From: Parcubacteria group bacterium GW2011_GWA2_38_13b
GTDB lineage: Bacteria; Patescibacteriota; Minisyncoccia; GWA2-38-13b
DNA length: 36,733 bases
Assembly (NCBI GenBank): GCA_000992445.2
Contig: LBUF02000021.1
Span: forward strand, 1 to 36,733
Direction of reading: 5' to 3'
The notes under the pieces are model-generated. The model was not told where the DNA came from, did no database searches, and was given only the letters and a program-made list of their open reading frames with translations. Shown piece after piece: positions 1 to 35,651 of the stretch (positions are counted from its first letter, which is position 1; the number at the start of each line of letters is the position of its first letter). The position numbers and the translations under genes were made by a program.

Positions 1-1514
1 CAATTAAAACACTTTCTCGGTATTGGAATTAACATTTCCCGATAAAATTCCAATTCCGATTTCACCAAACGATAATTCGCGCCACAATTAACGCATTTAA
101 GAATCTCGTTTAATATGCCGTCGGGTATTTCCTTAATATTATCGGGAATTTCTTCCGGTTTCAATGTCTCCTGATTATAAGTATGCGGTATATTATCTTC
201 CCACCGAAAACCCTGTTTTATCGCCTCTTAATTGGAAATGGGAAACATATTCAAAGCCACGGTTTCATTATAAGCGAATGGCGCCATTTCCAATGGAAAA
301 TAAAGACCGTACTGTCCGCTTTTTTTCAATTGACCGACGATTTGATCGCGCAATATTTTATATTCGTTTTTACCGTATTCCTTGTTTAATATGCGGCATT
401 TGGCATTCCTCAATCCGTCGCATCCAAAACAATCATCAGCTCTTTCCACGTCAAAACAATATTCAATATTAACGCAATGATGCGAAGAAAAACTCCCGAT
501 GACTTTATTGGAATAGCCGACCGCAACCGTTGCCAAGTTTAGCTCGCAATCATAACCATAGCCCACATTATCGCGGCTATCCTTGATTGATTTAGTAAAA
601 AAATTAAATTTGCAATCTTCGCCATTTATCATTTCAAAACAATAATGGCAATTTTTTGATTGTAGCAAGTATTCTCCGTCGGAATCAACGGTTTTAATAT
701 TGTTGTTTTGCCGTTGCGAAAAATTCGATTTAAAATCCCGAAATTCCCGCCAAAATTTTTCAATTTTATCGTAACTGCCGAGAATGCCGGAAACTTTATC
801 AATATATTCTTTTTTCTCCAATGGTTTATTTAAAAAATGATAATTTTTATTCCGTAAATTTACGCAACCAAAACAACTTTGAAGATTATTGCAATTAAAT
901 AAAAACTGTGAGTTCAAACAATTGGAAATATTTTGGCTATAACATATTCCATAACTGTTTTGCGCGTTTATACACTCATAAGATTTTTCAAGCTGTTCCG
1001 CGAAATAACTGTCCAAAACATCGCGGCAATAACGAAGCCCCCTTGAATAAGAACAATTTTCAGTATAACCGGTATTGAAAACAAAATAACATTTTTTATT
1101 GAATCCTGAAAAATTTTGGTACTCGCCCTTAACATTTGTCCCTCCGCTAATAAACAAAGTTTGCTTAGGAACAATTAACAACAATTCCTTCATTTGTTCC
1201 ATAAACGGCCGAATTTTATCGTAATCTTTGGCATAATTTTTAGCATCCCATTTGTCGGATTTATAACAATCATTGCAATAAACCGTATAGGGCGAATTTG
1301 GATTATACATTGAAATCATTGATTCGGCGCATAAATCGCAATTTCTTTTATAAAGAGTTGTTTCGTTCCTAAACATCATTATTTGTTTGATCCGGCAATA
1401 GCCGCATATATTCGGAACGGGAACCTGCATTTTTTCGTAAAATACGAAATCATCCGATTCTATCGTAAAATCGGTTTTACAGTTTTGGCAAATTTTTGTT
1501 TGCGATTGGTTCAT
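1..1514 (-). pseudogene. Cysteine-rich zinc-ribbon repeat protein, copy 1, interrupted by an in-frame stop and cut by the window edge
   Basis: This is the last of four tandem paralogs. The start is placed at 1514 (MNQSQTKICQNC) because copy 4 begins with the same residues; an upstream ATG at 1544 overlaps copy 2. The N-terminus has two CxxC pairs (CQNC, CGYC) and then CDLC/CNDC, as in a zinc ribbon. The middle is a series of short N-x-C/C-x-x-C repeats containing NLQSCFGCVNLRNK. The frame meets TAA at 228-230, but translation in the same frame continues to the window edge with clear homology to the C-terminal part of the other copies (QGFRWEDN, then IPDNIKEIPDGILNEI, then ELEFYRE). Alignment with copy 2 (FPLTKEEI versus FPISN*EA) puts the stop where Glu is expected, so one GAA-to-TAA change explains it. 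Either the gene is broken or this is a sequence error. Function is unknown. Confidence 0.8.
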
Positions 1515-1519
1515 ATTGA

Positions 1520-3256
1520 TTAAATTACTTCCTGCCGATAGCATCGTTCGCAGTAAACTTTTAATTTCTTCGCGGGATCAACGGAAGAAGGCATCATTTT
1601 ACCGCATTTTGAACAAGGATATTGCCATAAACGGAAACGCCGTTGAAATAAAAAACGATTCCTTATCCTTTGCAAGGGATGAATCGTCGGCAAGGGCAAT
1701 TTTTTCTTGCGATAAAAATCCAACTCAAAATCGGTTATCAAAAATGGTTTATTAGTTTCTTCGCAAATAATGGCCGACTTTAATATATCGTCAGAAATAT
1801 CGGAAATATCGTCGGGAACTTCTACGGTTTTTAATATTTTTAGTCGCGCTAAATCGATATTATCCCCCACTTCTTCTTCCCAATGCCATCCATTTTTTAT
1901 TATCTCCTCCTTGGTTAACGGAAACTCAATTGAAGCGCTGGAATCCGTATAATTGACATGGCTCATAGTTAATGGAAAAAATTCTCCGTATTCTCCGTTT
2001 TTTAACATTTGAGTTTTTATTTTATCAACATTTTCCCAATATTCATTTTCATTATATTGTTTATTGAAAATACAATATTTTTTATTTTTTAATCCGAAAC
2101 AACCAAAACAATATTCACAATTATTGCATTCAACGCAATATTCCAAGCCCAATCCACCTCTTATTATCATGGAAAATTTAATATTGCTTGCCGGCGACAA
2201 ACCGGTTGATTCATAACACCACGACGAATCGGAAAAACTCATAGTATCCATGGAATCACTCACCTTATCGGCTACGCATACATATCTTAAATTCTCACTC
2301 CCGCCGAAAACCCTGAAACTGCGAAAACAATTCCGGCATTCGTGAAGATCGTCTCCCAAAGAATTTTCCGCTTTGACATTTCTAAGATTCTTTTTTATCG
2401 CGCCGTCCATATATTCCCTAAATTTTATTTGCCATTGTTTCAATACGCTCCTTTTGCCCAAATTAATTTCATTGATTCTTTCTTTATATCCTTCCGCGCT
2501 TAATTGTTGATTGAAAAAGCAATAACTTTTATTTCTTAAATTGACGCACCCGAAACAATTGGAACAATTATAGCAATCAAAAAGAAAATAACTGTCCATA
2601 CAACCGTTTGATTCATAGCAAAAACTGCAATTATAACAATGGTTTGCCAAAACGGTTTCATAGCACATTTCCGAATAGTCGGTATTATTAACATCAACGC
2701 AATATTTTGAAAATAAGGGACTGGAAGAATAATAAACATTTTCTGAATAATAAGGTATGGTCATATAATAACAATTTTTTGCCGCTTTGCCCGCTATCGC
2801 GTATTCACTGTTAACGCTTTTGGGATCTCTATGCATTCTCTGGCGCGGAATCGTAAATGAAAAATCATAAAATTGCTTAAAAAAAGATTTTTCAAAATCA
2901 TAATTCTTGCCGAATTCCAAGCCGTCCCATTTGTCGGAAAAATAGTACTCGTCATCGTAAACTTTTACTTTATTATTCGGCGAAAAAAAACTGATTACGG
3001 TTTCGTTGTGCCCTGGCGCGCCGCATTTTTTCTTATAAAATACCGGCAAAAAATACACGCGATGACCCAATCGCCTTTGCAATCGGCAATCGGGGCATAA
3101 AGTCGGCGTTGGAACCTGAAACTTTTTGTAAAATTCAATGTCTTCCAAGAAAACATCAAAAACAACGCCGCATTGTTTGCAGTTTTTTTTATGCGGCTTC
3201 TGATCTTTTAAAATTTCATTTATCGCCGCTTCAAATTGTGGTGTTTTGGAAAGCAT
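1520..3256 (-). CDS. Cysteine-rich zinc-ribbon repeat protein, copy 2
   Basis: This 578-aa protein has no signal peptide or membrane segment. An N-terminal zinc-ribbon-like unit (CKQCGVVF, then CPDCRLQRR, then CGAPGH) is followed by a long central region of short repeats rich in Asn, Tyr and Cys (NCYYM, NCSFC, NCSNCFGCVNLRNK, then NCEYCFGCFGLKNKKY). This suggests a stacked, beta-helix-like coil of about 10-20 residues per turn. A second ribbon-like unit ends the protein (CSKCGKM, YCERCYRQEV) and mirrors the first one: ELDFYRKKKLPLPT matches the N-terminal IEFYKKFQVPTPT. Its start lies 8 nt after the stop of copy 3 and its stop 5 nt before copy 1, so the copies are probably one operon. I recognise the family as common in CPR genomes, often under unreliable names, with no known function. 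Metal binding is inferred from the cysteines only. Confidence 0.85.
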   Translation of the reverse strand: MLSKTPQFEAAINEILKDQKPHKKNCKQCGVVFDVFLEDIEFYKKFQVPTPTLCPDCRLQRRLGHRVYFLPVFYKKKCGAPGHNETVISFFSPNNKVKVYDDEYYFSDKWDGLEFGKNYDFEKSFFKQFYDFSFTIPRQRMHRDPKSVNSEYAIAGKAAKNCYYMTIPYYSENVYYSSSPLFSKYCVDVNNTDYSEMCYETVLANHCYNCSFCYESNGCMDSYFLFDCYNCSNCFGCVNLRNKSYCFFNQQLSAEGYKERINEINLGKRSVLKQWQIKFREYMDGAIKKNLRNVKAENSLGDDLHECRNCFRSFRVFGGSENLRYVCVADKVSDSMDTMSFSDSSWCYESTGLSPASNIKFSMIIRGGLGLEYCVECNNCEYCFGCFGLKNKKYCIFNKQYNENEYWENVDKIKTQMLKNGEYGEFFPLTMSHVNYTDSSASIEFPLTKEEIIKNGWHWEEEVGDNIDLARLKILKTVEVPDDISDISDDILKSAIICEETNKPFLITDFELDFYRKKKLPLPTIHPLQRIRNRFLFQRRFRLWQYPCSKCGKMMPSSVDPAKKLKVYCERCYRQEVI

Positions 3257-3264
3257 AATTTAAT

Positions 3265-5115
3265 CTACGCCACCTCCTCCTGATAGCATTTTTCGCAATA
3301 AACTATTTCTTTTCTATCCGAAGAATAAATGGTTTCAAATTCATTAGGGCAATGATTGTCGTTATGGTGATTATGATTGATCGTATTCCGGTAAACCTTA
3401 TTATCCGATTGCGTTCCGGCGCACTGGCATTGACGATGCCAGAGTTTAACCGGATCGCATTGCCTTATTCTTTCAAAATGGCGGCAAATTGGACAAAGAC
3501 GAGGAATCGGCAACCCATACTTCTTGTAAAATTCCAACTCTCGGGGAATAATTTTAAAAACAATGGAACAAGGTTCATCGCAACCGCCTTTATGGGCGCA
3601 TTCTATCACTTCGTTTAAAATATCATCGGAAACATCATTAATCTTATCGGGCAATGATTTGTTTTCTAAAGTAACTTTGTATTTATTATACTTAGGTTCT
3701 TCCCAACCATAACCCATTTTAATAGCCGCATTCATGGTCAACTTAAAATACTGGTGAGCCATTGTTTTATTATAACCGAACGAACAAAATTCTTCGGGAA
3801 AAAATTCGCCATAACGATAGATTATTTCTCGCGTTTGAGATTTTGAATTTTGGTTATTGGAATTTATTTGTAATTTAGGATTTAGGATTTGTGATTTTCG
3901 AGATATATACGGCGCGTCGTTCATATGCTGAATTATTTTAGAAACCATATTTTTATATTCTTCCGCGGAATATTGTTTGTTAAAAATACAGTATTCTTTA
4001 TTATTCAAACCTACGCAACCGAAAAGATACGATGAATTTCGGCAAGTATCGGAATAATAAATATCGTGGCAATTTTCAGTGATGTTGTTGGAAAAAAATA
4101 CCCTAAAAGTGTTAAGTCCGACGCTTACGGAATCATATATTAACGAGGCTTTTCCGCCGGAATCAACGCAATCATAACTGTCGTTAAACCCGAGACCGGC
4201 TAAAATTATAAACTTTACATCTTCCGCCCCCATAATATCAAAACATTCGCGGCAATTCTTGGCGTTGCGCAGTCCGTTTCCGGAACTATTGAAAGAATTA
4301 ACCATTACGGCAAAACGGCGGGGATACGAATTTTTAAAATCGTTAAATGTATTTTTCAAAGATGCTAAACCGTTAAAACCGCTAAAATCATACTCGCCGA
4401 CGATCTTGAAATACTCCTCTTTTGAATATTGTTTATTAAAAATATGGTATTTTTTATTTCTTAAATTGACGCAACCGAAACAATTGGAACAATTTGAGCA
4501 ATTATAAAGCAAAAAAGAATCCAAACAATTTGTGGCGTACTGGCTGAAAAAAACATTATAGCACTTTTCGCAATTAATGCAGGAATAACAATTCTCGCAG
4601 GCGTTGATAAACCAGCAATCAACGCAATTTTTGCTTGAAATCGCGGCCGCGGAATACAAACAATCTTCATCATAAATACCGATCGTCAAATAACAATTTT
4701 TAGAATAACTGATGGTGCCGCAATAATCGCAATTGACCGAATTGCGAATACTTTGGTTATACCTGGGCACCGCTTTTTGAAGATCATAAAGCTGCGAGAA
4801 AAATGGCCGGGAAAAATCGTAATCGCGACCGCAATTCATCGGATCCCATTCATCCGAAAACCAGTATTTATGGTCATAAATCTTAAATAACCCGTTTTCC
4901 GGATATACCGAAAAAATCTCTTCGTTATGATTCGGGGCCTGGCACTTGATTTTATAAAGCACGACTTCGCTTCGCCAAATCATTTTTCTTCTCATCCGGC
5001 ATTCCGGACAAAATGTCGGCGGCGGAACATTGATTTTGTCGTAAAACGCGAAATCTTCCGATTCTATCGTGAACGGATTTTGACAACTTTGACAAGTTTT
5101 ATTTTCTCGATTCAT
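3265..5115 (-). CDS. Cysteine-rich zinc-ribbon repeat protein, copy 3
   Basis: The protein has about 616 residues from the ATG at 5115 (MNRENKTCQSC); a longer start at 5151 would overlap copy 4 and is not conserved. The layout matches copies 2 and 4: N-terminal CQSC/CPEC ribbon, central Asn/Cys short repeats with NCSNCFGCVNLRNKKY and a second FGCVGLNNKEY block, then a C-terminal ribbon (CPICRHFERI, CQCAGTQ, YCEKCYQEEV) that includes the His-rich stretch NHNHHNDNHC. About 25 residues before YRYGEFFPEE (KSQILNPK through SKSQTR) are absent from copy 4 and look like a translated intergenic repeat. The first 26 or so codons share an identical 78-bp block with copy 4, pointing to recent duplication or gene conversion. 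Function is unknown. Confidence 0.85.
   Translation of the reverse strand: MNRENKTCQSCQNPFTIESEDFAFYDKINVPPPTFCPECRMRRKMIWRSEVVLYKIKCQAPNHNEEIFSVYPENGLFKIYDHKYWFSDEWDPMNCGRDYDFSRPFFSQLYDLQKAVPRYNQSIRNSVNCDYCGTISYSKNCYLTIGIYDEDCLYSAAAISSKNCVDCWFINACENCYSCINCEKCYNVFFSQYATNCLDSFLLYNCSNCSNCFGCVNLRNKKYHIFNKQYSKEEYFKIVGEYDFSGFNGLASLKNTFNDFKNSYPRRFAVMVNSFNSSGNGLRNAKNCRECFDIMGAEDVKFIILAGLGFNDSYDCVDSGGKASLIYDSVSVGLNTFRVFFSNNITENCHDIYYSDTCRNSSYLFGCVGLNNKEYCIFNKQYSAEEYKNMVSKIIQHMNDAPYISRKSQILNPKLQINSNNQNSKSQTREIIYRYGEFFPEEFCSFGYNKTMAHQYFKLTMNAAIKMGYGWEEPKYNKYKVTLENKSLPDKINDVSDDILNEVIECAHKGGCDEPCSIVFKIIPRELEFYKKYGLPIPRLCPICRHFERIRQCDPVKLWHRQCQCAGTQSDNKVYRNTINHNHHNDNHCPNEFETIYSSDRKEIVYCEKCYQEEVA
3833..3903 (-). 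repeat. AT-rich repeat carried in frame inside copy 3
   Basis: On the coding strand this stretch is built of near-repeats of AAATCCTAAAT and CAAAATTCAAAAT type. It translates to a low-complexity linker (SQILNPKLQINSNNQNSKSQ). Copy 4 joins its flanks directly (ADKKGRIYKYGEFF). Sequences of this kind are familiar as intergenic repeats in CPR genomes; that it is an inserted repeat is inferred. Confidence 0.55.
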
Positions 5116-5126
5116 ATTTTTTTTGA

Positions 5127-6914
5127 TTACACCACTTCCTGTTGATAGCATTGTTCACAATAAACAATCTCCTTTCGTTCCGGCGCGTAGGTCGTCTCAA
5201 ACTCGTTGGAACAATGATTATCGTTATGATGGTTATGATTGATCGTATTTTGATAAACCCTGTTATCCGATTGTGTTCCTCCGCACATACATTGCCTGCG
5301 CCACAGTTTTAACGGGTTTCGTTGTTTAATGCGCTGATAATGGCGGCAATCCGGGCATACGCGCGGTAACGGTAAATTATTTTTTCTGTAAAATTCCAGT
5401 TCTCGCTCTATAATTTTAAAAACTCCGATTCCCTTGCAAGCATTACCGTTAAAACATCCGATTATTTCATTTAAAACATCGTCTTTCACGTTTTTAATGT
5501 TATCCGGAATATCTTTTGCCCGAATCGTTAAATCGTAACTGCCTTTATATTTCCTAATATCCGTGTATCTATAACCGCAGTTATCAATTTCTTTTTTATC
5601 TAACGGAAAATATTCGTTAGCGATAGTTTCATTGTAAGCGAATGGCGATAATTCAATCGGGAAAAATTCGCCGTATTTATAAATTCTCCCTTTTTTGTCT
5701 GCGTAAGGCGCATCGTTCATATGCTGGATTATTTTTGGCACAATCTCTTCATATTCTTCTTTAGCGTATTGCTTATTTAAAATGCAATATTGTTTGTTAC
5801 GCAAACCGATGCAACCGAAAATATGATGAGCCGGACGGGACAAATCCGAGTATATAACATTGTAACTTTCACCGGCAGCATTAACGGTAAATAATATATT
5901 GTAACCGAAAGAAGTAACGCTGTCGTAACACAACTGCGCCCCTTCTCCGGTTTCCGACATATCATAACTGTCGCTTACGCCGGTAGCCATAAAAATATAA
6001 CGCGCGTTTTCGGTATTATAATTTAAGGTGTCGGAATCAAAGCAATTGCGGCAATTCTTGGCGCCGACAATGTTATTGCCGGTGGTATCGATTGTCTTTA
6101 ATAGCGCGGCGTAACGGCGAGGAATCCGATTTACGAATTCATTAAATTTCTCCCGCGCTAAACTAAAATTTTCAAAACCGCTAAGATCGTATTTATCGCG
6201 CATTATTTTTTCATACTCCTCTTTTGAATACGGCTTGTTAAAAATGTAATATTGCTTATTTCTTAAATTAACGCAACCGAAACAATTACTGCAATTCCGG
6301 CAATCATATAAAAAATATGAATCGCGGCATTCAATCGCGCATTGCGAAAAATAAACCTTACTGCAACTCGTGCAATTTATTGATTCGTAACACGAATCGC
6401 ATTTAACCAACATAAAATAGTCAACGCAGTTTTTTGCCCAACGGGTATAATTGCCATATAAACAATCCTCTGTTTCAAATCCTATAGTAAGGTAACAATT
6501 CTTGGAATTCCATACTTTAGCGCAATAATCGCAATTAACGCTATTAAGATTTACAAAGGCAAATCTCGGCACAACATTCATTAATTCTTTGTACTGTTCA
6601 AAAAACAGCTTATTGAAATCGTAGTCCTTGCCGTAATCCATAGGATTCCAATTGTCGCTATACCAACATTTTTGACAATAAACCGGAAAAGAAACATCGG
6701 GATAATATAAAGCAAAAATTTCATTTTCGCATAAATCGCATTTCCGCTTATATAAAATTCTTTCGTTTAAAACCGCCAGCCGTCTCTGCAACCGGCATTC
6801 CGGACAAAATGTCGGCGGCGGAACATTGATTTTGTCGTAAAACGCGAAATCTTCCGATTCTATCGTGAAATCGGTTTTACAGTTTTGGCAAATTTTTGTT
6901 TGCGATTGGTTCAT
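5127..6914 (-). CDS. Cysteine-rich zinc-ribbon repeat protein, copy 4 (first of the tandem set)
   Basis: This 595-aa protein starts MNQSQTKICQNCKTDF. The N-terminal ribbon has CQNC, CPEC, CDLC and CQKC. The central region carries many short repeats (NCYLTIGFETEDC, NCVDYF, CDSCYESINC, NCSNCFGCVNLRNKQY, later FGCIGLRNKQY). The C-terminal unit repeats the ELEFYRKNNLPLPRVCPDC pattern and ends with CMCGGTQ, the His-rich NHNHHNDNHC and YCEQCYQQEVV. N- and C-terminal units look like copies of one ancestral domain flanking the repeats. It lies 57 nt downstream of the hibernation-factor gene, with no clear terminator between them, so read-through is possible. No catalytic motif is visible, and a structural or metal-binding role is a guess. 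Confidence 0.85.
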   Translation of the reverse strand: MNQSQTKICQNCKTDFTIESEDFAFYDKINVPPPTFCPECRLQRRLAVLNERILYKRKCDLCENEIFALYYPDVSFPVYCQKCWYSDNWNPMDYGKDYDFNKLFFEQYKELMNVVPRFAFVNLNSVNCDYCAKVWNSKNCYLTIGFETEDCLYGNYTRWAKNCVDYFMLVKCDSCYESINCTSCSKVYFSQCAIECRDSYFLYDCRNCSNCFGCVNLRNKQYYIFNKPYSKEEYEKIMRDKYDLSGFENFSLAREKFNEFVNRIPRRYAALLKTIDTTGNNIVGAKNCRNCFDSDTLNYNTENARYIFMATGVSDSYDMSETGEGAQLCYDSVTSFGYNILFTVNAAGESYNVIYSDLSRPAHHIFGCIGLRNKQYCILNKQYAKEEYEEIVPKIIQHMNDAPYADKKGRIYKYGEFFPIELSPFAYNETIANEYFPLDKKEIDNCGYRYTDIRKYKGSYDLTIRAKDIPDNIKNVKDDVLNEIIGCFNGNACKGIGVFKIIERELEFYRKNNLPLPRVCPDCRHYQRIKQRNPLKLWRRQCMCGGTQSDNRVYQNTINHNHHNDNHCSNEFETTYAPERKEIVYCEQCYQQEVV

Positions 6915-31364: not shown

Positions 31365-33185
31365 TTATTGCCCGTCTTCCAGCGAATCTTCTAACATCTT
31401 CCTCAATCCGCCGATATCCACTTCTTTTTTACTTTTTTTTATCTCCTTGAATAATTTAGGTTTATATTTCAAGGCGTCCTTAAGAGAAACGGATGACGGC
31501 GTTTTTACTATTTTTTCCGCTTCTCTCTTAAAAGGCGCGGCTGCTCTCAACGGCGCGGAAAATTTCTGAACAGGTTTTTGAAATCTTCCGATATTTAAAC
31601 CGGTTCGCGACGGTTCTTCACTGTAGTTTTTCTTAACAACATCACTCCTTTTATCCTCCACTCCTATACCCAAAACTCCCAAATCAATTTCATATTCTTT
31701 TCTTTCTTCCATTTTAATGAACCGTTTCGACGGGATCGGCTGGATTTCTCCGGCTTGCACTTTATTCAAACAATCTTTGCAATAAATAGGTCTTACTCCA
31801 TCCGGTTCAAAACTGACACCTGTTTCTTTGGAACAATTCCAACATACCGCCTTAAATTTCCCCCTTGTTTCGCTTCCCCTGAATTCAGCCGCCGAAGATA
31901 TTCCGCCGCTCCATTTTTCTATTTCCCTTTCCACTTCCGGTTTTGATTTTCCGTAAAGTTCACGCGACCGCGCGATTATTTTATCCGTATTGCCTTCTGT
32001 TTTACTAACCGCAAAAGGCGGCAAAGTATCAGCTGAAAAAGGACGGCTGGTAACTCCATCAACCATTAATTTCAAATAAATGCTGAAATTAGACAAACCG
32101 ACCAAATCCTGCTGAGTGAATTCCGGAGCAAATTCGTTTTCCAAAAATTCCGCATCCGCCGCGCCAACCCTGAAAACTATCATCGTACCAACATTGCCAA
32201 ATACCGCATCCCTAACCTTTGTGCTGACATCCGTCACAAGCTGACCTATGTATTGATGGCTAATGATTAAATTTAATTTATATTTTCTTGCTTCGGATAA
32301 AATTGACGCGAATGATTCGGTGGCAAAATTCTGAAATTCATCAACATAAAGATAAAAATCCCTCCGCTCTTTTTCCGACACCCGCACTCTCTCCATAGCG
32401 GCTAGCTGAATCTTGGTAATAAGCATAGCACCGAGCAAAGCCGAATTATCTTCTCCGATTCTTCCCTTGGCAACATTAACGATTAAAATCTTTCCCTTGT
32501 TCATTATTTCCGGAATATTGATACTGCTGTGCGGTTGACCGATTATATTTCTAACAATGGCCGTGGAAAGAAATTGTCCGACTTTATTTTGAATCGGAGC
32601 AATAGCTTCACTCCTGAATTTATCCTGCCATCTTTCATATTCATTAACCCAAAATGACTTAACCACGGGATCCTTGATGCTGGCTACGATATTCTGCCTG
32701 TAATCCCTGTCAACCAGAATACGCATAATACCCAAAAGAGTGCTGCCCGGAGTATCCAAAAGAGCTAAAACGCAATTATTCAAAATATATTCCATTCTTG
32801 CCGACCAAACGCCGGCCCACAATTTCGTAAAAACTCCCATTAAATCGGAAGCGATCAAATGTTTATACTTAGGATCGGGAACTTCAAGAATATTAAAACT
32901 AACCGGATATTCATTGTCGGCCGGATTAAAATACACAACATCACTTATCCGTTCTTCGGGGATTCTATCTAAAATTTTTTCCGCCGATTCTCCGTGCGGA
33001 TCCACCATCGCTATACCGTGCCCCATCCGGATATCCTGTAAAATCATATTTTCCAAAACAGTCGTTTTACCTGTTCCGGTTTTTCCCAAAACATACATAT
33101 GCCGACGCCGATCGTCGGATTTTATACCAAATGCCCTGTCCTTACCCCTAAAATTAGTTTTAGCGAAAAATACCGTATCGTCCAT
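31365..33185 (-). CDS. TraG/TraD/VirD4-type ATPase
   Basis: The 606-aa protein starts close to its nucleotide-binding domain: HMYVLGKTGTGKTTVLENMI holds the Walker A motif (residues 34-42), then IAMVDPHGESAEKIL, and FYLYVDEFQNFATESFASIL with Walker B. This matches the type IV secretion coupling/TraM-recognition ATPases. It has no membrane helices of its own. A Cys4 ribbon follows the ATPase domain (CWNCSKETGVSF, YCKDC), and the C-terminal 100 residues are basic and low in structure. The gene upstream encodes a membrane partner. The pair is common in CPR genomes and may move DNA or protein across the envelope; that role is inferred. Confidence 0.85.
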   Translation of the reverse strand: MDDTVFFAKTNFRGKDRAFGIKSDDRRRHMYVLGKTGTGKTTVLENMILQDIRMGHGIAMVDPHGESAEKILDRIPEERISDVVYFNPADNEYPVSFNILEVPDPKYKHLIASDLMGVFTKLWAGVWSARMEYILNNCVLALLDTPGSTLLGIMRILVDRDYRQNIVASIKDPVVKSFWVNEYERWQDKFRSEAIAPIQNKVGQFLSTAIVRNIIGQPHSSINIPEIMNKGKILIVNVAKGRIGEDNSALLGAMLITKIQLAAMERVRVSEKERRDFYLYVDEFQNFATESFASILSEARKYKLNLIISHQYIGQLVTDVSTKVRDAVFGNVGTMIVFRVGAADAEFLENEFAPEFTQQDLVGLSNFSIYLKLMVDGVTSRPFSADTLPPFAVSKTEGNTDKIIARSRELYGKSKPEVEREIEKWSGGISSAAEFRGSETRGKFKAVCWNCSKETGVSFEPDGVRPIYCKDCLNKVQAGEIQPIPSKRFIKMEERKEYEIDLGVLGIGVEDKRSDVVKKNYSEEPSRTGLNIGRFQKPVQKFSAPLRAAAPFKREAEKIVKTPSSVSLKDALKYKPKLFKEIKKSKKEVDIGGLRKMLEDSLEDGQ

Positions 33186-33202
33186 TTTTGAAAAAAATAA
33201 AT

Positions 33203-34486
33203 TTATTTTTCATTTTCACTGCCGAAAATCGGCAAACCGGCCGGCGGTCCTATCCGCTTCGACTCAACCCTTCTCAACATCGGTGCCGTTAAAACAAGAA
33301 AAGTGGGAAAATGATATATCGTGGCAAGCTCCTCCACATTTAAAACCGGCGGATTATTAGTAAAGGCAAAATGAAACGGCAAAGAAGTTATCAATTCCCC
33401 CATAAAAGACGACTCCTTCATATTCCTTGTCCGATAATCAAAGTATATTTTCTTCTTCCTGTCCTTTAATCTCCATTTCCGAAAAAAATACAAAAACTCA
33501 TCCGTATCTTTATCTCTGTTTTTAGTAAAATAATTCAAATTTTGCGTCCCGTATTGGTTAAAAGCCGCGCGCACGCCTTTATTCGCCAAACTATCGTCAA
33601 ATGTATCGCGTGGCGCTAAATATACTATGCGAATCGTCGTATTAAAACCGACTTTTGCCACATTTTGTTCTATGGCTTCCATTACATCCCTTTGACCCGG
33701 CGTTAATTGAGTAGAGGTCATCACCCTTTCTTCTTCGCCCATAGTCGTTGTCATCTTTCTTTCGGCGTCTTTTCTTATATCTTCCAGCGCCTCCTTGGAA
33801 GCGTCTTTCCAATCAGGACTCGCCGGCAAAATCAAAAGCTGAATCCAAATCCTGTCTTCCTTTTTTGATTTAGTCAAAATTTCCAAAAGAGCGGATACCG
33901 GATCCAGCGATTTATCTTCGTCCGGCGATTCAAATTCAACATAAGTCCTTATAGGATAAACATCGGATTTTCCAAGCATCAATTCCGTTCCCCATAAATT
34001 AAAGCCCATATTGGAAACTTCATCAAATGATTCGGGAAATTCATTTATATAATCCTCGACTTCCGAAATATCCAAATCCTGATATTGCGCGTAAAGATTA
34101 GCCTCAACGATATTCCTAAACTTACGCGGAGTTCTGATGTAAAAATGGACTTCCCCGCCCATACTCACGACTTCCAAGCTGAACTTCAAAAGCGCTTTTC
34201 CAAACCACCATTTTTCAATAAATCCCCGGCCGCTTTTCGTATTATAAATATTGCACAAAAATTGTTCCATCGCCTTTGGACTTTTCCTGATTTCTCTCGG
34301 CATTTTTATTTCCAACAGCATGCCGGAATTTCTCGGCTTTGCACTATATAAACCTTCAAGATAAAAAATCCATAACGATTTAAAAACGAAAAAAACCGTA
34401 ACCGGAACATAAATCCACCAGTAATGAATCGCTATTTTAAATAAAACCAATGCGAATAATAATTGTTCCAGAATCTGTGTCCACAT
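33203..34486 (-). CDS. Membrane partner of the TraG-type ATPase
   Basis: This 427-aa protein has an N-terminal membrane segment or hairpin (LLFALVLFKIAIHYWWIYVP, VTVFFVFKSLWIFYLEGLY) and a long soluble domain (LLEIKMPREIRKSPKAMEQF, then GGEVHFYIRTPRKFRNIVEA). A mixed helical/strand part includes EEERVMTSTQLTPGQRDVME and ends at the conserved Pro-rich SKRIGPPAGLPIFG. It lies 17 nt before the ATPase gene, so the two are likely translated together. The proteins recur as a pair in CPR genomes. I take it to be a membrane anchor or docking subunit; no enzyme motif is visible. Confidence 0.75.
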   Translation of the reverse strand: MWTQILEQLLFALVLFKIAIHYWWIYVPVTVFFVFKSLWIFYLEGLYSAKPRNSGMLLEIKMPREIRKSPKAMEQFLCNIYNTKSGRGFIEKWWFGKALLKFSLEVVSMGGEVHFYIRTPRKFRNIVEANLYAQYQDLDISEVEDYINEFPESFDEVSNMGFNLWGTELMLGKSDVYPIRTYVEFESPDEDKSLDPVSALLEILTKSKKEDRIWIQLLILPASPDWKDASKEALEDIRKDAERKMTTTMGEEERVMTSTQLTPGQRDVMEAIEQNVAKVGFNTTIRIVYLAPRDTFDDSLANKGVRAAFNQYGTQNLNYFTKNRDKDTDEFLYFFRKWRLKDRKKKIYFDYRTRNMKESSFMGELITSLPFHFAFTNNPPVLNVEELATIYHFPTFLVLTAPMLRRVESKRIGPPAGLPIFGSENEK

Positions 34487-34514
34487 AAATATATTATATC
34501 ATAATGCTATAAAA

Positions 34515-34558
34515 GAAAAAACCAAATCCTGAGAATATAATTCAAGATTTGGCTTTTT
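34515..34558. terminator. Intrinsic terminator after the sigma-like gene
   Basis: On the minus strand GCCAAATCTTGA and TCAGGATTTGGT pair with one mismatch, followed by TTTTTC. A-rich sequence on the other side allows use on both strands. Confidence 0.85.
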
Positions 34559-34592
34559 CTGTTTGCGATTTATGCTATGCTTATTCCGCAAA

Positions 34593-35651
34593 TTACTCCG
34601 CCAAAATAAAAGCATTATCATCCGTTTTTTGAAATTCCGGAGAATTATTGATATTCAAAATTATCGTATTGGTTTTTACCATCCTCTTTTTCATAACTTC
34701 GTCGATAATTTCCTGCCTGGTCATCGGCCTGTTAGATTCTGCCAGCACTTCTCTTATGACATCTTTGACGGTGCCCGGCTTATAGCCCCATTCCGCCAAA
34801 GCGTAAAGGCCCCTGCCCACCAAAATAAATCTCGGATCTTTAATCAATTCATTGTGAACGGTCTGAGAATAAGCTGTTTTGGGAGACAAACCCATTTGGT
34901 TTATCAACTCGGCCACATTGGTAAAATGAAGCGGTTCGCCTTTTTTCTTCAATACTAAATAAGCCCTGTCTTTCACTCCTCTCGGATTTATAACGGGCCA
35001 GTGAACCAAACCGTATTCCCCGAAAATATTTTTTTCCACCAATTTCGCGACATCCAAATACGATAAATGCGCTTCCCGGGGAACATGCGATGCCGTAGAA
35101 ATCAGCCACTTCATCAAATCTTCTTCGGATATCACATTATTTAAACTATTAAAATAATCCACCAAACCGCGAATTATTTTCCGCGCTCCAATCAAAGACT
35201 CCTTGCCAAGCATCCATAAAGCGTGAGTATCTTCTGTTTCATTCGCATAATCAAACGGTTCGGAAATTGTCAAAATTAACGAAATGGCTCTCCCGTATCG
35301 CTTTATCTCTTTATTATTGGATGTATCCTGATAATAAGCTGACATCATATCATTAAGTAAAGTTTCTTCTTTTCGCAAATTACCATGACTTTTTAAATAA
35401 CTTTCTAAACGAAAAACTATCGGCTTAAAAAGCATCGATATTTCATCGCGCTTTAAACGTTTCAAGCCACCATCTTCTATTTGCCTGACCCTTTCCCTTG
35501 TGATGCCATAACTGCGACCTATGGATTCCAATGTTTCGGTTTCATTCTTATTTATGCCAAAACGACGCACAATAATATCCTTTGTACGCTTGGGCAATGT
35601 AGTTAAACCCTCATTGACCAACATATAAGGATTATTTAAACTTTTTCCCAT
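34593..35651 (-). CDS. Sigma-70 region 4 / HARE-HTH fusion protein
   Basis: The 352-aa protein starts with sigma region 4: LPKRTKDIIVRRFGINKNET, then LESIGRSYGITRERVRQIED (about residues 41-60), which would contact a -35 element. Sigma regions 1-3 are absent. The middle is helical and unknown. The C-terminal third has HARE-HTH/RpoE (delta)-like winged helices: GEPLHFTNVAELINQMGLSP, VGRGLYALAEWGYKPGTVKD, then RPMTRQEIIDEVMKKRMV. Such fusions may compete with the main sigma factor or connect it to other DNA sites. A near-consensus promoter at 35754-35782 gives a leader of about 95 nt. Its targets are not known. Confidence 0.8.
   Translation of the reverse strand: MGKSLNNPYMLVNEGLTTLPKRTKDIIVRRFGINKNETETLESIGRSYGITRERVRQIEDGGLKRLKRDEISMLFKPIVFRLESYLKSHGNLRKEETLLNDMMSAYYQDTSNNKEIKRYGRAISLILTISEPFDYANETEDTHALWMLGKESLIGARKIIRGLVDYFNSLNNVISEEDLMKWLISTASHVPREAHLSYLDVAKLVEKNIFGEYGLVHWPVINPRGVKDRAYLVLKKKGEPLHFTNVAELINQMGLSPKTAYSQTVHNELIKDPRFILVGRGLYALAEWGYKPGTVKDVIREVLAESNRPMTRQEIIDEVMKKRMVKTNTIILNINNSPEFQKTDDNAFILAE

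Follow-up and report, generated by a model that had tools for sequence, protein, structure and literature searches.

The window, a contig (C21) of 36,733 nucleotides from the genome of Parcubacteria group bacterium GW2011_GWA2_38_13b (0.87 Mb in 21 contigs), carries four paralogous genes arranged head to tail on the minus strand at positions 228-6914. Patescibacteria, to which this organism belongs, form a large and mostly uncultured radiation with very small genomes, living on other microbes. An earlier sequence-only reading had described four tandem cysteine-rich proteins at this locus, which we could confirm: cysteine accounts for 5.5-6.7% of the residues in the array proteins, and a full-length protein of the family contains about 30-40 cysteines. 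Copies B, C, and D share 35-55% identity with copy A (Table 1). The likely start codon of copy B is located downstream of the copy A stop codon, and the intergenic gaps in the array measure 20, 8, and 5 nt. The NHNHHNDNHC stretch, previously noticed in two of the copies, is indeed found only in copies A and B.

Table 1. Coordinates of the array genes in the window and of the domains of copy A (Z, double zinc module; S, solenoid)
Feature	Position	Strand	Description
Copy A	5127..6914	-	595 aa, full-length Z-S-S-Z, array gene 1; AlphaFold2 pLDDT 92.2
Copy B	3265..5151	-	628 aa as listed; 613 aa from likely start ATG 5106
Copy C	1520..3256	-	578 aa; no His-rich insert
Copy D	228..1544	-	438 aa as listed; likely start ATG 1514; ends at in-frame TAA 228-230
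Copy D frame beyond TAA (start of normal C-terminal region)	1..227	-	cut by contig end
Copy A N-terminal double zinc module, residues 1-100	6615..6914	-	conservation and hhalign
Copy A solenoid 1, residues 121-235	6210..6554	-	12-residue coils, Cys every 3, cap FGCVNLRNK
Copy A solenoid 2, residues 268-400	5715..6113	-	homologous to solenoid 1; cap FGCIGLRNK and helix
Copy A C-terminal double zinc module, residues 478-595	5130..5483	-	homologous to N-terminal module; NHNHHNDNHC insert

The shortness of copy D is not natural, as its frame is interrupted by the in-frame TAA and then cut by the contig end. Because the frame resumes the normal C-terminal sequence past the stop codon, copy D is either a recent pseudogene or the result of a sequencing error. 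Copy C is closest to a copy encoded on contig C16 of this genome, not to its array neighbors. Elsewhere, the source genome contains at least four long copies (contigs C4, C15, C16, and C18), and C16 also ends in a copy fragment. Over their first 45 codons (6780-6914 and 4972-5106), copies A and B agree at silent positions in 97% of 31 comparable codons, compared with a silent-position identity near 50-58% beyond them, a sign of local gene conversion. We also considered a widespread conversion of the gene ends among 540 within-genome pairs, where only a mild excess was observed. The third-base identity was 0.56 within genomes versus 0.46 between genomes for the segment ZN, and 0.47 versus 0.45 for the coils, with clear conversion tracts in about 10 pair-segments, copies A and B included. 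We thus rejected the general case and retained the conversion as a local observation.

The proteins follow a Z-S-S-Z plan, in which a double zinc module resides at each end and two related coil domains occupy the middle. The EFY-K-x3-P-P-T-x-C-P-x-C unit is found at both protein ends, and hhalign identifies the N- and C-terminal modules as homologues (99.5%, E 7e-23). The terminal units had been read as mirrored; they are related, but as same-direction tandem duplicates and not as mirror images. The two FGC-x-x-L-x-N-K blocks, also recognized earlier, each cap one of two solenoid domains, which are homologous to each other (hhalign 99.9%, E 6e-35). Among 217 full-length relatives, Cys 9, 12, 37, 40, 542, 568, 586, and 589 are 99-100% conserved, whereas the conservation of the coil cysteines varies from about 0.2 to 0.95. 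The proposed conservation of cysteines among relatives accordingly holds for the termini but not throughout the coil. C59/C62/C80/C83 of the N-terminal module occur in a part of the family only. The basic zinc motifs CPxCRxxRR are conserved as well, and the zinc-type nature of the ends is supported. Hundreds of copies with a mean identity of 42% retain the zinc ligands, caps, and fold elements, and the sequence entropy is 1.4-2.0 in the zinc modules and caps versus 2.5-2.6 in the coils.

As for the coils, autocorrelation over solenoid 1 of the 217 members revealed a repeat period of 12 residues with a cysteine sub-spacing of 3 (lag 3 z=53 and lag 12 z=40 versus shuffles). The AlphaFold2 model of copy A, computed with 119 relatives (pTM 0.92), is a β-solenoid in which the coil strands recur at 3-residue steps and a helix follows each FGC cap. 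The solenoid pair alone was modeled with a pLDDT of 84.4 and a pTM of 0.77. The central region is confidently predicted to be a narrow β-solenoid, in agreement with the β-helix core with ordered cysteine positions suspected by the sequence-only reading. Neither the whole-protein model nor that of the solenoid pair had a PDB fold match at E<=0.001 in Foldseek, which likewise returned nothing among viral models, and a sequence search of the PDB returned no significant match. The four array proteins gave no match above the cut-off in Pfam, NCBIfam, or PHROGs, only weak ones to zf_Tbcl_2 and phrog_15341. No close relative of the 12-residue cysteine solenoid fold, as modeled, seems to have a solved structure.

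The top Foldseek matches were left-handed β-helix hexapeptide proteins (GlmU, LpxD), which resemble the model as β-solenoids in general. However, these matches have E >0.001 and TM-scores of at most about 0.2, and the turn comprises 12 residues in 3-residue steps instead of hexapeptides. The insect antifreeze proteins of the Tenebrio type (PF02420) share the 12-residue cysteine-containing coil repeat, whereas the window family is bacterial, cytoplasmic-looking, and capped by zinc modules. The period is alike, and we do not claim a common family; PF02420 gave no match to five coil segments up to E 10, although HMMER filters can drop weak matches. Small cysteine-repeat proteins of two phages, both encoded beside a helicase and a radical SAM gene, match solenoid 1 weakly: gp169 of Campylobacter phage CPt10 (L152, 2911-3336; E 0.3), with PF02420 annotations, and a protein of phage vB_CjeM_WX1 (L153, 2384-2944; E 1e-3). 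The zinc modules may be akin to the treble-clef domains zf_Tbcl (PF13451) and zf_Tbcl_2 (PF23477), the latter matched weakly by the window copies (14-17 bits, curated cut-off 27), with the difference that each end of the solenoid protein bears its own copy of the pair.

All named matches to the family in the genome collection are from Patescibacteria. In an even sample confined to this phylum, 36 of the 380 genomes contain the family, and 46/335 genomes of the window's class do so. Arrays are common, with up to seven or eight copies per 14 kb, and the suggested expansion is lineage-wide, reaching about 25 copies per genome (24 confirmed matches). Interrupted copies are found in other genomes, too, and the family is retained in genomes <1 Mb. 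We provisionally rejected an origin as a phage or plasmid module, since viral contigs yielded one partial locus and one weak phage match to the whole protein, and plasmids none.

The sequence-only reading had proposed looking for linked genes. It had not anticipated the dedicated ATPase partner. When the neighborhoods of 76 loci were clustered, an ATPase of the TrwB/VirD4-HerA type was dominant (27 loci), followed by CutA1 (11 loci); MreB, ABC transporters, and other neighbors were too rare to count. The ATPase gene often lies <1 kb from a family gene, and each of the 29 nearby ATPase genes examined shares its strand with the nearest family gene. Of 28 family-positive genomes from the phylum-wide sample, 20 encode such an ATPase no more than 5 kb away from a family member, compared with 3.2 genomes expected from random placing and a maximum of 9 in 2000 simulations. 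A tree of 37 ATPases places type P (called at E<=1e-150, roughly 490 aa) together with the array-linked ATPases of six out-of-class genomes in one clade, spanning several classes and with 100/100 support, excluding the unlinked paralogues of the same genomes. Among the 335 class genomes, type P is present in 51 and the solenoid family in 46, with both in 40; that is, type P occurs in 40/46 family-positive but 11/289 family-negative genomes (Fisher odds ratio 168, p 3e-35, from raw genome counts ignoring kinship). The co-presence spans 12 families of the class, and 23 of the 40 pairs are <5 kb apart, with at most a few family matches scored per genome. The six family-positive genomes without a type-P match and the 11 type-P genomes without the family may include incomplete assemblies. 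We are highly confident that the solenoid family is associated with this one ATPase clade.

The partner ATPases exceed the cut-offs of PF10412 (TrwB_AAD_bind), PF02534 (T4SS-DNA_transf), PF12696 (TraG-D_C), and PF01935 (DUF87). The type-P motor is single-copy where the solenoid family has expanded. In the source genome, the type-P gene (C15:31735-33111) is 1.9 kb from the C15 copy, on the opposite strand; it is near this one copy only, the four window copies being on another contig. Its product shows no clear transmembrane segment or N-terminal anchor (maximum 19-residue hydropathy 1.47).

Deep relatives, first seen as partial matches in the phylum search, proved to be shorter forms built from the same parts. 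In L148 and L149, the ATPase gene precedes a single-solenoid gene (232-240 aa), and in L151 the ATPase gene is followed in series by one for Z (99 aa) and one for S-S (347 aa). L150 has neighboring Z (98 aa) and S-S (301 aa) genes followed by a sigma70-region-4/HARE protein, and its stand-alone Z protein scores above the cut-offs of both zf_Tbcl and zf_Tbcl_2. Z and S-S are thus separate adjoining genes in L150 and L151, a Rosetta-type split. In a distant class (that of G067), a single-solenoid protein is found in 9/147 genomes; its gene adjoins the ATPase gene in eight of them, and the ninth (L162) carries the two as a fusion. The fusion is one 638-aa frame (1495-3408, minus strand) with the ATPase at residues 28-449 and the solenoid at residues 454-636, and it lacks the ATPase tail as well as the solenoid protein's first 50 residues. 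The solenoid is the common denominator beside the motor, the zinc modules being a separate gene or fused at both ends depending on the lineage. Even though the single L162 case possibly arose from a chance deletion or an assembly error, the fusion would argue for a stable complex between the ATPase and the solenoid. Together with the adjoining pairs of this class, the fusion, found in one genome, is the strongest sign that the solenoid and the motor might act as one complex.

The dedicated partner shifts the likely role of the family from metal binding or a passive scaffold to a component of an ATPase system. Constant ends and caps, diverged coils, and a single-copy type-P motor would be read most simply as a motor with exchangeable recognition subunits. 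We propose, at a little short of an even chance, that the array encodes interchangeable zinc-stabilized β-solenoid adaptors for a stand-alone soluble ATPase of the TrwB/VirD4-HerA superfamily. In this proposal, the single ATPase would be the docking site for the constant zinc modules and caps, and each paralogue would gain a binding surface of its own from the variable 12-residue cysteine-rich coils. A whole repertoire of adaptors or receptors would presumably serve one motor, and their cargo could be protein or nucleic acid.

The partner shares the TrwB/VirD4-type motor domain with the coupling proteins of type IV secretion systems (T4SS; VirD4/TrwB/TraD) and with HerA/DUF87. Unlike the coupling proteins, it has no clear transmembrane segment, falls into a separate clade, and appears to be tied to solenoid genes instead of relaxase or VirB genes. 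The paralogues could be substrates, recruited by a coupling-type ATPase through their constant ends as a signal and exported, e.g., onto the host of the epibiont. Coupling proteins do recruit substrates, the large variable arrays lie beside one ATPase, the family proteins show no signal peptide or transmembrane segment by simple hydropathy, and T4SS are thought to be repurposed in Patescibacteria (PMC12102498). We consider a substrate role unlikely, because one protein uniting ATPase and solenoid, as in L162, ill suits an exported substrate; moreover, the ATPase lacks an evident membrane anchor, cysteine-rich zinc modules fit the reducing cytoplasm, and most Patescibacteria coupling proteins are not near virB4 (PMC12102498). 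It is decidedly unlikely, in our judgment, that the pair acts on nucleic acid itself, in HerA-like translocation, DNA processing, or phage defense, and that the zinc modules and coils bind DNA or RNA. The ATPases do match TrwB, HerA/DUF87, and DNA-translocating families, the CPxCRxxRR motifs are basic, and variable multi-copy arrays are known from conflict systems, but PADLOC assigned 0 defense families to copies A, B, and C, the ATPase matches are generic, and no nuclease or other effector domain was found.

The sequence-only reading had considered the binding of many metal ions possible, and a protein for metal binding or tolerance, buffering zinc or copper, would make use of the many cysteines. 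CutA1, a divalent-ion tolerance family, is the second most frequent array neighbor, and CutA is enriched in family-positive genomes (16/46 versus 17/289 negative genomes, p 3e-7). Such a store is improbable because the coil cysteines are poorly conserved while the terminal ones are invariant, and the ordered fold predicted here also differs from metallothionein-like storage. CutA is missing from the source genome and most family-positive genomes, and metal buffering leaves the ATPase linkage unexplained. The nonsense codon in copy D and the interrupted copies elsewhere would suit a neutral, lineage-specific birth-and-death expansion in which most copies have little function. We regard this as highly improbable given the ligands, caps, and fold kept despite the low mean identity, the retention in genomes <1 Mb, and the conserved partner.

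Returning to the motor with exchangeable adaptors, the nearest functional parallel is Legionella DotL with DotM, DotN, and IcmSW, in which one coupling ATPase works with cytoplasmic cargo-recruiting accessory proteins (PMC7280309, PMC3441705). This likeness is a works-like analogy only, for which we claim no sequence relation, and it differs in that the accessory proteins here come as large, variable arrays of paralogues. A 2025 survey of 2,918 Patescibacteria genomes found 5,713 VirD4-type proteins, only 148 of them near virB4, and left open other functions or exaptation for them (PMC12102498). Thousands of these ATPases are without a known task (PMC12102498). The tandem solenoid sets and the motor ATPase point to a two-part system not recognized before; no published account of the solenoid family or of its ATPase link was found in the open-licence literature. 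With yet more caution, we suggest a Patescibacteria motor-plus-repertoire system in which a solitary coupling-type ATPase works with up to about 25 zinc-clamped solenoids, and which would allow genomes of about 0.5-1.4 Mb to select many different targets through one machine. Some Patescibacteria devote tens of kilobases to the solenoid family despite their tiny genomes. If true, such a system would explain a part of the VirD4-type ATPases located far from T4SS genes in Patescibacteria. One orphan ATPase clade and one anonymous expanded family, including a natural fusion, would then become one testable complex.

The window itself contains another ATPase gene (31365-33185), which we rejected as the partner, since the tree assigned it to a separate general clade, type D. 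Its product, like type P (L075), exceeds the cut-offs of PF10412, PF12696, and PF02534, and type D also occurs in genomes without the family and adjoins some arrays elsewhere. This TrwB/HerA-like protein bears a C-terminal zf_Tbcl_2 / CxxC-x17-CxxC zinc finger and belongs to a minus-strand cluster (31365-35651) whose other products are a 427-aa protein, hydrophobic at its N-terminus, and a protein combining sigma70-region-4 and HARE-HTH; a similar order is seen beside an array at L026. In two genomes without the solenoid family (G382 and G548), the type-P genes are broken by internal stop codons, as though the motor degenerates where no array is present. On contig C15 of G000 (L094, 1221-9959), the type-P ATPase and a family copy are near genes that, as read from sequence only, encode two DsbA-like thiol oxidoreductases and flavoprotein disulfide reductase-like, VKOR-like, and cyclophilin proteins.
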